Positions 6,151 through 11,302 of a stretch of DNA of 64,000 nucleotides are shown here, one piece after another. The number at the start of each line of letters is the position of its first letter. The first letter of the stretch is position 1. Source of the stretch: Thioalkalivibrio sp. ALJ24 (GTDB lineage Bacteria; Pseudomonadota; Gammaproteobacteria; Ectothiorhodospirales; Ectothiorhodospiraceae). A program made the position numbers and the translations under genes. The stretch is taken from the NCBI RefSeq assembly GCF_000377785.1, contig NZ_KB898724.1:124001-188000 (forward strand). The letters run 5' to 3'. The notes under the pieces are model-generated. The model saw nothing but the letters and a program-made list of their open reading frames with translations, was not told where the DNA came from and did not search any database.

Positions 6151-8217
6151 TCAGACGGACTCGAAGTCGAAGTCCGGTTCGGGCATAGGGGCCTGCAGGA
6201 AGAAGCCCTGCACGAGGTTGACGTTGAGGCCGTAGAGCACGGCCAGTGCCGAGGCGTCCTCGATATGCGGGACGATGACCTGCTTGCCCTTGGCGTGGGC
6301 GGCCTCGGTATATTCGCGGATCGTCTCCTGATTCTCCTCGCTGTCCGCGAGGTCCTTCACGAAGGAGGCATCCAGCTTGATGTGGTCGGCATCCAGGTGC
6401 TGCAGCAGCTGGAAGGGCTTGAGCCCGTTGCCGAAATCGTCCACGCACAGATGACTGTGCATCTCCTTGAGACCGCGGCCCACGCTCATCGCCGGCTTCA
6501 GGTGGGTGACGATGGTCGGTTCCTTGAGTTCCACCACCACGTTCTCCGCGGGTACGCGCAGGGCGTGCAGGTCATCGTTCAGCCAGGTCAGCACCGACGG
6601 GTCTCCGAGGGAGCCGTTGGTCAGTTTCAGGAAGAACTGGGTGCGTGAATCCTTCTTCAGCTGCTGCGCCAGCACCGCAAGTGCATGGCGCAGGATCCAG
6701 CGGTCGACCTGCGTGGCCACGCCGGTGCGCTCGGCGCTGGGAAGGAATTCCACCGGTTCGTGCACCGTGCCGTCCGGGTCCATCAGGCGCACGAACACGC
6801 TGTAGCGCGGGCGGTCGGCCCCGTGCAGGTTGACCACCGGCTGGTAGCGCAACTCCAGACGGTTCTCTTCCAGTGCTTCGAGGATGCGGTTCTTCCATTG
6901 CTGGTCCAGCTGGGCCTGGGTCAGCTCGCCTTCGGCCGGGCGGTAGAAGCGATGGGTGTTGCCGCCGGCCTTCACGGCCTCCTCCAGCGCGCGGTCGGTC
7001 TGCGCCAGCAGTTCCTCGGTGTCCGGGGCGGTCTCGTCGGCGATCACCCCGCCGACCGAAATGCTGCCGTGGGTGGACAGGCTGCCCACCTCGAAGACCC
7101 GTGAGGCGATGTCTCCCTGCAGGGCCTCCAGACGCTCCTCCGCGGGAGACTGCTGGGTGTCGGGCAGCACCACGCCAAAACGCTCGGCCTCCAGACGGGC
7201 CACCACGGCCTCTTCCGGGAAATGGGCCTCGATGATCTGGCCGATGTCCGCCAGCAGCAGATCGGCCCCGGACATGCCGGCATTGGCGCGGATCTCGGCG
7301 AAGTGGTCCACCGCGAGGGTGAGCAGCGTGAACGGTTTTTCGGTCTCGCCCGCATGCCGCCGCGCCGCCTCGATGGAATCGAGGAAATGCTGGCGGTTGT
7401 ACAGGCCGGTGACCAGGTCGCGCTGCGACAGGTAATCGATCTTCTCCGCCAGTTCGCTGTCGTCGCCGGAGCGCAGCTGTACCTGGGTGGCGGCCTCGCC
7501 GTCCACGGTGGTGGAGGAGAGATGCAGTTCCGCTTCGAAGGGCTCGCCATCGAGGGTGCGAAGCTGGAAGTTCTGGGCCGCGGCCTCCTCGCTGCCTTCC
7601 TGATAGCTGCGCAGGAAGCGCTTGAGGTCGTCGCGGCTGTCCGGGGCCACGAGGTCCATCAGCGGCAGGCCTTCGATGTCGTCGGGGTCTTCGACGCCGA
7701 AACGCTCCCGCCAGGAGGCGTTGGCGTAGACGTGCATGCCGTCGTGGATGTAGGCGATCGCGTCGCGGGAGTTGTTCAGCAGCAGCTGGCAGCGGCGCTC
7801 GGACTCCTGCAACGAGGCCTCCATCCGCTTGACCTGCTGGCGGCTGTGCAGATGATCCGCGGCGCGGATGGTCATGATCGCGGCGAGATCGACCAGTTCG
7901 CTGTCGACCACGGCGTAGGCCCCGGCCTCGTAATCGGGCAGACGCTCGCTCTCCGGGCGCTCGGTGAGGATCACCAGCGGGGTACGCCGGCCGGCACCCT
8001 TGAGGGCGTGATCCACCTCGGGGCGCGCCAGCCCCAGGCCCGGTTCCGACAGCACGATGGCGTCGAAGCGATGCTGCTGGATCGCCTCGCCCAGTGCATC
8101 CGCGTCATCGACCTGTTCCGGACGCACGGCGCAGCCACGGGAACGGATGTTGCTGATGACCTGTTCCGCTCGGTTGGGATCGGCGGTGACGAAAAGGACT
8201 CGAATGGATTCGATCAT
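6151..8217 (-). CDS. FimX-like protein: degenerate REC-PAS-GGDEF-EAL, likely c-di-GMP receptor
   Basis: The 688 residues match FimX of Pseudomonas aeruginosa (691) in length and domain order. A REC-like domain (1-120) has LSEPG where the phosphoacceptor Asp should be. A PAS domain follows (about 140-255). The GGDEF domain has EAERF at residues 343-347 in place of GGDEF. The EAL domain (about 435-688) has SVF at 473-475 in place of EAL, and VPHIED where AEGVET is expected. It should therefore neither make nor degrade c-di-GMP. It keeps VDDFGNG, IKLDASF and QGFF, consistent with ligand binding. FimX controls type IV pilus assembly and twitching; that role here is inferred. It lies 17 bases downstream of the PilZ-like gene. 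I see no good Shine-Dalgarno. Confidence 0.75.
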   Translation of the reverse strand: MIESIRVLFVTADPNRAEQVISNIRSRGCAVRPEQVDDADALGEAIQQHRFDAIVLSEPGLGLARPEVDHALKGAGRRTPLVILTERPESERLPDYEAGAYAVVDSELVDLAAIMTIRAADHLHSRQQVKRMEASLQESERRCQLLLNNSRDAIAYIHDGMHVYANASWRERFGVEDPDDIEGLPLMDLVAPDSRDDLKRFLRSYQEGSEEAAAQNFQLRTLDGEPFEAELHLSSTTVDGEAATQVQLRSGDDSELAEKIDYLSQRDLVTGLYNRQHFLDSIEAARRHAGETEKPFTLLTLAVDHFAEIRANAGMSGADLLLADIGQIIEAHFPEEAVVARLEAERFGVVLPDTQQSPAEERLEALQGDIASRVFEVGSLSTHGSISVGGVIADETAPDTEELLAQTDRALEEAVKAGGNTHRFYRPAEGELTQAQLDQQWKNRILEALEENRLELRYQPVVNLHGADRPRYSVFVRLMDPDGTVHEPVEFLPSAERTGVATQVDRWILRHALAVLAQQLKKDSRTQFFLKLTNGSLGDPSVLTWLNDDLHALRVPAENVVVELKEPTIVTHLKPAMSVGRGLKEMHSHLCVDDFGNGLKPFQLLQHLDADHIKLDASFVKDLADSEENQETIREYTEAAHAKGKQVIVPHIEDASALAVLYGLNVNLVQGFFLQAPMPEPDFDFESV

Positions 8218-8234
8218 GGATAGGCGGAGGCTTT

Positions 8235-10100
8235 CTATCGCGGGTCCAGGGAGAGGCCGTCACTGGCACCCGAGGTGGGCGCATCGTTGTCCGGGTCCTC
8301 GGCGAGCTCGATCTCGGTCATGCGGCAGCCGACCTCGGTGAACAGTGTAGTGCCCGTGCGCTCCGCGTCCAGCGCCAGCACCCGTGCACGCCCGTTGAGC
8401 CACACGACGACGCGGTTTTCGTGGTCGAACCCCTGTGCCGGGAGGAACAGGGCGGCCCCGCTCTCTCCGACGCGTACCGGGGTGAACAGGGCCGGCCGGG
8501 CCTCGCCTACCGCCCGTCCGGCACGAAAGAGCTGGACCTGCACCGGCATGCAGCGCTGGGCCAGGTATTCAACCCCGATGCTGATCTCGACGTTGTTCTC
8601 GAAGCGGATCCAGCGCAGCACGCCGACGGTCCAGCCGATCTGCTCGGGCGCCTGTTCGCGCAGCCCGACCAGATCGCCGATCAGCAGGGTCTGCCGGGGG
8701 GTCTGCAGGCGCAGGCGGATCCCGCCCGCGCCGATATCCTCGACCTGCCAGTGTTCCGGCTGCTGACGCTTGACGATCGGGGGCTGCGGCTCATCGCGGT
8801 CCGCGATCTCGAGCCCGCGGCCGACATCTTCCCAGGCCTGGCCGGCCCGGTCCGTGCCGCGGTCCGCCAGGGGGCGGGGTTCGCCGCCCCGATCCGCGGG
8901 GCGGGGGCTGTCGCTCAGACTCAGGCCGGCGTCGCTGCGGGCGGCCTCCGACATCTGCACCACATTGACGGAGGCCGCGCGCCCGCGGGGATGGCCGTCA
9001 CCCTCCCGGCGGTCGGGTACCGCCGTGTCGGTGGGAGCGGGCCTTCCGGGGCCCGTGCGGCTGTCCAGTGCGGCCTGCATGTAGGCGTGGATGCGGGTCA
9101 GGCCGAACAGACAGTAGCGCTGTTCGTCGGTGGTCTCCCGCGAATGCCGGCGCGTTGGCAGCCGCGACCACAGCCACAGCATCCGTTCGGCCAGCGTGTG
9201 TCCGTCGGGGCGTCGCACCGGGTCGAGGGCTTCCGGCTGATCGCGCAGGGCCTCAAGCAGCGGATCCAGCTCCACGTGGGTGCTGTTGTGCTCGGTGGGC
9301 AGGCTGCGCAGGACCAGTCCCGGGGGGTGGTCGGTATCCAGGTCCGCCCGCAGTACCGGCAGATCCGGGTGCCCGTCGGGGCCGGGCGTGGGACGGCCTT
9401 GAACCGTGATCCCGCCGATCCAGCGGGCCAGCAGGTCGATGTCACCGATCTCCAGGGCATTGACCCCGGTGCTGCCGAGGACGAACAGGCGCGCGCTCAT
9501 GGTGTCGATGCTGTCCGGACCCAGCGGGCTGATCGCCTGGCGCCGTACCGGGGGCTCGGTGGCGATTCCGGTCTCCAGCGCGAACCAGTACAGGCCATAG
9601 ATCTGCCGCCACAGGCCGCGCGGCAATGGCTGATAGAGGCGCCAGTGGTGGATTGCCAGGGCTGCGAGGGCATCCAGGGCGGCCTGCATGTGCGGGACGC
9701 CCTTGTCCCGCGAGGTCCTGTTGGTGGGCACGCTGACGGGGGTCAGCAGAAGGTGCATGCTCGCCAGTTCGCGCAGGGTGTCGCCAAAGATCTGCGCGCG
9801 CCGCAGGCTGCGCTCCGCCAGGGGCAGGGCGCGCTGGCGCAGGCTGCGTTCCACCTCCGGGATCAGCGGCAGCAGGTATTCCTCGATGATGCCGGCCAGC
9901 TCGTCGCGCACCCCGGGCTTGAGGGCGGTGCGGTTGAGCGAGCCGAGCAGCGCGCAAAGTTTTTCGAATGCCGCCTCGCCGTCGGCGCGCGGCAGATCCT
10001 CGCACCACGCACGAAGGGTCTTCGCGGTATGTGGTGGAAAGCCTCCGGCGGTGGGCTCCGTCTCCGGCAGAGGCGGAAAAACGGCATCCGAGTCGATCAT
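8235..10100 (-). CDS. Large protein with C-terminal PilZ-like domain
   Basis: A 621-residue soluble protein. Residues about 30-480 form a mostly helical region I do not recognise, with no catalytic motif evident. The C-terminal part (about 430-550) resembles a PilZ domain: VEDIGAGGIRL, starting near D455, stands where PilZ has (D/N)xSxxG, followed by GDLVGLR and ISIGVEYLAQ. The Ser is replaced by Gly and a clear RxxxR motif is absent, so c-di-GMP binding is doubtful. The frame is open to 10493, but that extension overlaps epmB and has shadow-like composition; the ATG at 10100 starts M-I-D-S-D-A-V-F-P-P-L-P. It lies between epmB (73 bases upstream) and the fimX-like gene, suggesting shared function with the latter. 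Confidence 0.7.
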   Translation of the reverse strand: MIDSDAVFPPLPETEPTAGGFPPHTAKTLRAWCEDLPRADGEAAFEKLCALLGSLNRTALKPGVRDELAGIIEEYLLPLIPEVERSLRQRALPLAERSLRRAQIFGDTLRELASMHLLLTPVSVPTNRTSRDKGVPHMQAALDALAALAIHHWRLYQPLPRGLWRQIYGLYWFALETGIATEPPVRRQAISPLGPDSIDTMSARLFVLGSTGVNALEIGDIDLLARWIGGITVQGRPTPGPDGHPDLPVLRADLDTDHPPGLVLRSLPTEHNSTHVELDPLLEALRDQPEALDPVRRPDGHTLAERMLWLWSRLPTRRHSRETTDEQRYCLFGLTRIHAYMQAALDSRTGPGRPAPTDTAVPDRREGDGHPRGRAASVNVVQMSEAARSDAGLSLSDSPRPADRGGEPRPLADRGTDRAGQAWEDVGRGLEIADRDEPQPPIVKRQQPEHWQVEDIGAGGIRLRLQTPRQTLLIGDLVGLREQAPEQIGWTVGVLRWIRFENNVEISIGVEYLAQRCMPVQVQLFRAGRAVGEARPALFTPVRVGESGAALFLPAQGFDHENRVVVWLNGRARVLALDAERTGTTLFTEVGCRMTEIELAEDPDNDAPTSGASDGLSLDPR

Positions 10101-10173: not shown

Positions 10174-11202
10174 CTATTTTTCGGCGCTCTGCCCCGCTTG
10201 CACTGCCGTCTTGCCCGGTTCGCCGGCGACTTCGCGCACCCGTCGCGGCAGCAGATAGCCCGGAAGGCGGCGGTGCATCTCCCGGTACAGAGCGGCGGCA
10301 CGGTCGGGGGGTACCTCGAAATGCGCGGTGCCGCGGGTGCGGTCCAGGCAGTGCAGATAGTACGGCAGCACGCCGTGACGAAAGCCGCTTTCCTGCAGAG
10401 CCACCAGGGTATCGGCGTCGTCATTGACCCCGGCCAGCAGCACGGCCTGGTTGAGCAGGGTGATGCCGCTGGCCCGCAGGCGTTCCAGGGCATGATCGGC
10501 CGGGGCGGTGAATTCGCGCGGATGGTTGGCGTGCAGTACCAGCACGTGCTGCAGGCGCCCCTGCCCCAGCCAGCCGAGCAGGGCGTCGTCGACCCGCTCC
10601 GGCAGCACCACCGGCAGGCGGGTGTGGATGCGCAGGCGTTCGAGGTGGGGAATGCCTTCCAGGCGTGTCACCAGCCGCGCCAGCCGGGTGTCGGACTGGC
10701 TCAGGGGGTCGCCACCGCTGAGGATGACCTCGCGGATGTCGGGGTGTGCCGCGAGATAGTCCAGTGCCGGGCCCCAGTCGTCGCGCGCCGGGTTGTGGTC
10801 GGCGTAGTCGAATTCGCGTCGGAAGCAGTAGCGACAGTGGATCGCGCAGGCCCCGGTAGTCAGCAACAGGGCGCGCCCGGCGTACTTGTGCACCACGCCG
10901 GGGGCGGCCAGGGCCTCGTGATCGCCCACCGGATCGGCGACGAAACCGGGTACCTCGTCGGTTTCCGCCGTCACTGGCAGGACCTGGAGCAGCAGTGGAT
11001 CCTTCGGTTCGCCGGGCACGATCCGGACGAGCCAGCTCTCCGGTACCCGGATCGGGAAGCTGGCGTGTCCGGCCTGCATCCCGGGCAGATGCTCCGGTGC
11101 GAGGGACAGGCGCCGGGCAAGGGTGCCCGGGTCGCGGATCGCGGCGGCCAGCGCGCGTTGCCAGCGGGGCGTATGGGTTGCCGGCGGTGTACGCGTTATC
11201 AT
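10174..11202 (-). CDS. epmB: EF-P (R)-beta-lysine modification: lysine 2,3-aminomutase EpmB
   Basis: Radical SAM, PLP-dependent enzyme that converts (S)-alpha-lysine to (R)-beta-lysine for attachment to EF-P. The radical SAM motif CxxxCxxC is at C119, C123 and C126 ([12 protein letters not shown]), with GGDPL further on. Starting at the ATG at 11202 gives 342 residues, the length of E. coli EpmB; an alternative ATG at 11220 adds six. It is divergent from efp, which it helps modify, and is followed on the same strand by the PilZ-like gene. Confidence 0.96.
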
Positions 11203-11302
11203 GATCGAATTTTTGGGCATGGTCGGTTCCCGGCGGGACGGCCGGCCCGCGTCGTTTGAACGGCTGGAAGAACTGGCTGGAAACCTTCGAGGATTACGCG
11301 CA

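Follow-up and report, generated by a model that had tools for sequence, protein, structure and literature searches.

A conserved fimW-fimX gene pair in Thioalkalivibrio and its distribution among gammaproteobacteria

Two neighbouring genes in Thioalkalivibrio sp. ALJ24 raise the question of which proteins they encode and whether these act together in c-di-GMP control of type IV pili. The window, that is the whole stretch of DNA that was analysed, comprises 64,000 nucleotides of a gammaproteobacterial genome of 2.8 Mb. A sequence-only reading of the window described a degenerate REC-PAS-GGDEF-EAL gene 17 bases after the gene for a 621-residue protein, and both frames are present at those positions:

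6151..8217, minus strand: fimX orthologue of 688 aa, domain order REC-PAS-GGDEF-EAL, catalytic motifs degenerate (open reading frame, profile and Pfam)
8235..10100, minus strand: fimW orthologue, 621 aa, with a helical N-terminal domain, a split PilZ domain and a C-terminal beta domain
10174..11220, minus strand: epmB (EF-P lysine aminomutase), upstream of fimW, named from its sequence and its place beside efp and epmA

The fimW gene lies 5' of fimX on the same minus strand with a gap of 17 nt (bases 8218-8234), and fimX ends just past dnaJ, which is on the opposite strand. The epmB gene has no evident role in the pair.

Judged from its sequence, the 688-residue protein is an orthologue of FimX. 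The FimX profile matches it over positions 5-691 of 694 in a single open frame, and Pfam calls the PAS, GGDEF and EAL domains but not Response_reg. Its closest solved relative in a PDB sequence search is P. aeruginosa FimX 4j40 (E 5.9e-82), followed by the FimX chain 7lkq (E 1.3e-60), and the top relative other than FimX has an E-value of 1.7e-48. The REC segment, compared by eye, reads FDAIVLSEPG and lacks an aspartate where the phosphoacceptor is usually found. Two further sites are degenerate:

7177..7191, minus strand: degenerate GGDEF site EAERF, FimX residues 343-347, probably inactive to judge from its letters
6793..6801, minus strand: degenerate EAL site SVF, FimX residues 473-475

The earlier description of a FimX-like receptor with degenerate motifs and without a phosphoacceptor is thus borne out. 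The EAL site reads SVF here, EVL in P. aeruginosa FimX and QAF in the 7lkq chain, and the arginine that follows the site is retained in the window protein. Mutation of EVL to AAA in P. aeruginosa FimX abolishes c-di-GMP binding (PMC5595344). SVF is further removed from EAL than EVL is, which would count against the window protein being a c-di-GMP receptor. An SVF-bearing FimX may nevertheless bind it, since the solved FimX proteins have EVL and QAF at this site.

The 621-residue protein is, as far as sequence comparison can tell, an orthologue of P. aeruginosa FimW. A scan of named genomes with a two-sequence alignment as query returned mainly Pseudomonas and Stutzerimonas, and in P. aeruginosa PA7 (locus L191) it found a FimW-family gene directly upstream of fimX, with serB beyond fimX on the opposite strand. 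The window protein matches the PA7 gene with an E-value of 6e-21 as a single sequence and 2e-40 as a genus profile. The homology covers both the N- and C-terminal parts, with an identity of only about 20%. We take PA4958 to be the locus tag of P. aeruginosa fimW; no functional paper was found in the literature under PA4958 or PA14_65530.

The PA7 gene was identified as fimW because of its position, together with the statement in a 2024 review that FimX in P. aeruginosa is 'encoded with' FimW, a c-di-GMP-binding regulator of extension (PMC11656802). FimW is also counted among the PilZ-domain proteins (PMC12564702). It is reported to dimerise in a c-di-GMP-dependent manner, to be recruited to the pole and to stimulate pilus assembly (PMC10212136), the recruitment occurring on surface contact (PMC10212136, PMC11656802). 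The source for FimW, in the citation given by PMC10212136, is Laventie et al. 2019. A PA14 strain with a fimW deletion had twitching comparable to wild type in one study (PMC12288467), and the effect of fimW may therefore be subtle or conditional. A wholly undescribed family was rejected because FimW is described in reviews. The PilZ-like neighbour of FimX had been called unrecognised and the pair a candidate for an under-described signalling module, but the former is an orthologue of a published protein (PMC11656802, PMC12564702, PMC10212136) and both members are already known in P. aeruginosa.

The organisation of the window FimW was deduced from an alignment of 97 relatives and from an AlphaFold2 model with a mean pLDDT of 83.6:

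9171..10025, minus strand: mostly helical N-terminal domain, residues ~26-310, with only weak, non-specific structural matches
9138..9152, minus strand: RxxxR c-di-GMP motif (R317-R321), with R321 in 97/97 and R317 in 95/97 relatives
8775..9014, minus strand: linker that interrupts the PilZ domain and is predicted to be disordered (residues 363-442, pLDDT <50)
8550..8774, minus strand: residues 443-517, which form the larger part of the PilZ beta barrel
8721..8738, minus strand: second c-di-GMP motif, [D/N]xSxxG, which reads DIGAGG in the window protein (residues 455-460)
8301..8549, minus strand: second small C-terminal beta domain, residues 518-600, with weak structural matches

A PilZ-like domain had been placed at the end of the protein. 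The domain is there, but it is split (residues ~316-350 and 443-517) and not terminal, since a further beta domain of residues ~518-600 follows it. R321, G460, G475 and G509 are invariant in the alignment, and RxxxR and [D/N]x[SGA]xxG are both intact in 89 of the 97 relatives, with a linker of 65-134 residues between the two motifs. The window protein has glycine in place of the serine of DxSxxG. Both motif segments fall into one PilZ barrel in the model (residues 316-517), and the PilZ region (316-350 and 443-517) matches the c-di-GMP-binding PilZ structures of BcsA, VCA0042, YcgR and MrkH with Z 9.5-8.1. The N-terminal domain matched 14-3-3 and designed helical proteins no better than unrelated helical folds do. 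The C-terminal beta domain folded alone gave weak matches only, a PilZ barrel among them, and a search for the YcgR-N beta domain that stands beside PilZ domains was equally limited to weak matches.

No model in Pfam or NCBIfam covers the FimW family. The Pfam PilZ model PF07238 scores 16.8 bits on the window protein (residues 449-512), below its cut-off of 22.5; a score below the cut-off is common to the whole family, and P. aeruginosa PA7 FimW has no Pfam hit. A pairwise PDB sequence search with the window protein also found nothing significant. The variable linker, which splits the domain between RxxxR and [D/N]xSxxG, explains why neither Pfam nor NCBIfam detects it.

Co-occurrence of the two genes across gammaproteobacteria had been proposed as a check, and they do stay together in many of them: fimW and fimX are adjacent on one strand in at least 59 of 370 genomes, with 18-1879 nt between the profile matches. 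Full-length FimX was found in 135 genomes, the FimW family profile found a member in 176, and 99 genomes have both (Fisher p 4e-14, a value that ignores shared ancestry). The FimW family is absent from 36 of the 135 FimX-bearing genomes, and three genomes of family f13 with a FimX 66-70% identical to 7lkq FimX have no FimW-family gene. FimW relatives precede fimX in nearly all loci of the genus that reach far enough. The usual order is efp on one strand and then epmB, fimW and fimX on the other, sometimes with an extra gene between fimW and fimX. Because the pair is conserved across at least 25 GTDB families, its arrangement is not due to chance. On a tree of 59 rows the FimX-adjacency label changes 3 times versus 16.8 times in shuffles, and the adjacency looks ancestral with few losses. 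The window genus was on a long branch in a first tree; in the 59-row tree, built with a better model, it grouped with a FimX-linked member of its own GTDB family.

Fifteen paralogues without FimX form a separate clade in the 59-row tree. Members of this clade (L067, L070, L081, L091, L098, L099, L114 and others) are never beside FimX, have varied gene contexts and have, in most cases, intact c-di-GMP motifs. Other arrangements were also seen. Four genomes of family f22 (L072:2695-6589, L079:2996-6788, L084:2736-6458, L095:2582-6732) have tandem FimW-family genes and no full-length FimX, and the second copy occupies the usual fimX position. FimX-like neighbours at L097:1192-3036 and L071:1110-2936 are 609-615 aa long and only their GGDEF-EAL part matches the FimX profile. 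At L110:3123-5249 the fimW gene that precedes an intact FimX is broken into frames of 546 and 118 aa.

The large PilZ-like protein had first been suggested as a possible dedicated partner of FimX. It does not stand in for the small PilZ protein of the Xanthomonas complex, since the genome has a small PilZ of the pilus type at another locus (L003, identified by eye from its sequence). FimW as its replacement was therefore rejected, and FimW is an additional component rather than a partner of the Xanthomonas type. FimW also falls outside the small pilus PilZ group (PA2960/XAC1133, about 118 aa, without c-di-GMP motifs), having 621 aa and both motifs. PilB was found in this genome above its cut-off. 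Another PilZ-domain protein in the genome (L005:1107-1875) has a possible YcgR-N-like region before the PilZ domain. The residues of FimX that contact PilZ gave no clear result as a marker of genomes without FimW; two methionines are lost even in close relatives of 7lkq FimX.

What is established here is orthology, gene order, motif conservation, a predicted fold, and the presence of PilB and a small PilZ in the genome. With these the pair can with considerable confidence be read as fimW-fimX, a pair of genes for c-di-GMP receptors through which the extension of type IV pili is controlled. FimX, whose GGDEF and EAL sites are presumably dead, would bind c-di-GMP in the EAL domain and engage PilB, the motor of extension. 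The PilZ domain of FimW would be its binding site for c-di-GMP, the two motif segments meeting across the long disordered linker. FimW would then form dimers, relocate to the pole and promote the assembly of pili, as its P. aeruginosa counterpart is reported to do. Most likely each protein senses c-di-GMP and both promote PilB-driven extension; ligand binding, localisation and the effect on pili are presumed to be the same in the window organism as in P. aeruginosa.

How closely the two receptors cooperate can be read in more than one way. The chances are about even that FimW is an independent c-di-GMP effector whose gene lies in one operon with fimX simply so that both are expressed together, and which acts elsewhere in the pilus machine. 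Each protein has its own plausible c-di-GMP site, many genomes have FimW paralogues at a distance from fimX, and the f22 genomes with tandem FimW lack a full-length FimX; the conserved gene order and the rare losses on the tree nevertheless suggest a closer functional tie.

It is doubtful that FimW is a dedicated physical partner which bridges FimX to PilB in a single complex, as the small PilZ does in Xanthomonas. The long-conserved adjacency, which looks ancestral, speaks for such a partner, and a contact between FimX and PilZ could not be detected in P. aeruginosa (PMC12533971, PMC5595344); the three f13 genomes with a FimX close to 7lkq, which have no FimW family, also fit this explanation. 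However, adjacency alone cannot show contact, the family is missing from 36 FimX-bearing genomes, the FimX of P. aeruginosa makes direct contact with PilB, also when PilZ is absent and in E. coli (PMC5595344), and a review states that evidence for an interaction of FimW with either FimX or PilB is lacking (PMC11656802). A broader version is improbable, namely that FimW and FimX together make up an ancestral c-di-GMP complex with two receptors in the type IV pili of gammaproteobacteria, in which FimW is the missing bridge from FimX to the machine and for which the Xanthomonas lineage substituted a direct FimX-PilZ contact. Most improbable is a degenerate, non-binding scaffold like the small pilus PilZ: the Pfam score below the cut-off and the glycine in DxSxxG would fit it, but nearly all relatives keep both arginines and the closing glycine, the modelled fold matches ligand-bound PilZ structures across the motif region, and c-di-GMP binding has been reported for the FimW of P. 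aeruginosa (PMC11656802, PMC10212136).

The FimW-FimX pair is a real and widespread module of a known kind, not a new one. FimW, which has been studied in one species, emerges from the survey as a widespread companion of FimX. What is added lies at the family level: the breadth of conservation of the pair, the clade of paralogues, and a split PilZ domain that escapes the Pfam and NCBIfam models. A profile of the FimW family would reveal many unannotated putative c-di-GMP receptors, including the paralogues.

FimX of the window shares with P. aeruginosa FimX the REC-PAS-GGDEF-EAL order, a dead GGDEF site and the lack of a phosphoacceptor, with 34% identity over the length, but differs in having SVF for EVL. 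FimW resembles P. aeruginosa FimW in its full-length homology, its place before fimX and a split PilZ domain with RxxxR and NxSxxG. The two differ in that identity is about 20%, the window protein has DxG instead of NxS, and fimW follows epmB here and psd/rhodanese genes in P. aeruginosa. FimW has the PilZ fold and c-di-GMP motifs of receptors of the YcgR, MrkH and VCA0042 type, but its PilZ domain contains a long linker and its N-terminal domain is large and helical, apparently in the place of YcgR-N. c-di-GMP reaches the motor of the pilus by different routes in P. aeruginosa and in Xanthomonas. The FimX-PilZ-PilB complex of Xanthomonas citri has a FimX with the same domain order, and a small PilZ and PilB are encoded in this genome as well, but the PilZ-domain protein beside the window FimX is FimW and not the small PilZ. 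In the stretch of X. citri FimX that contacts PilZ, two methionines and one alanine are replaced by valine, histidine and glutamate in the window FimX, and the tryptophan is kept.
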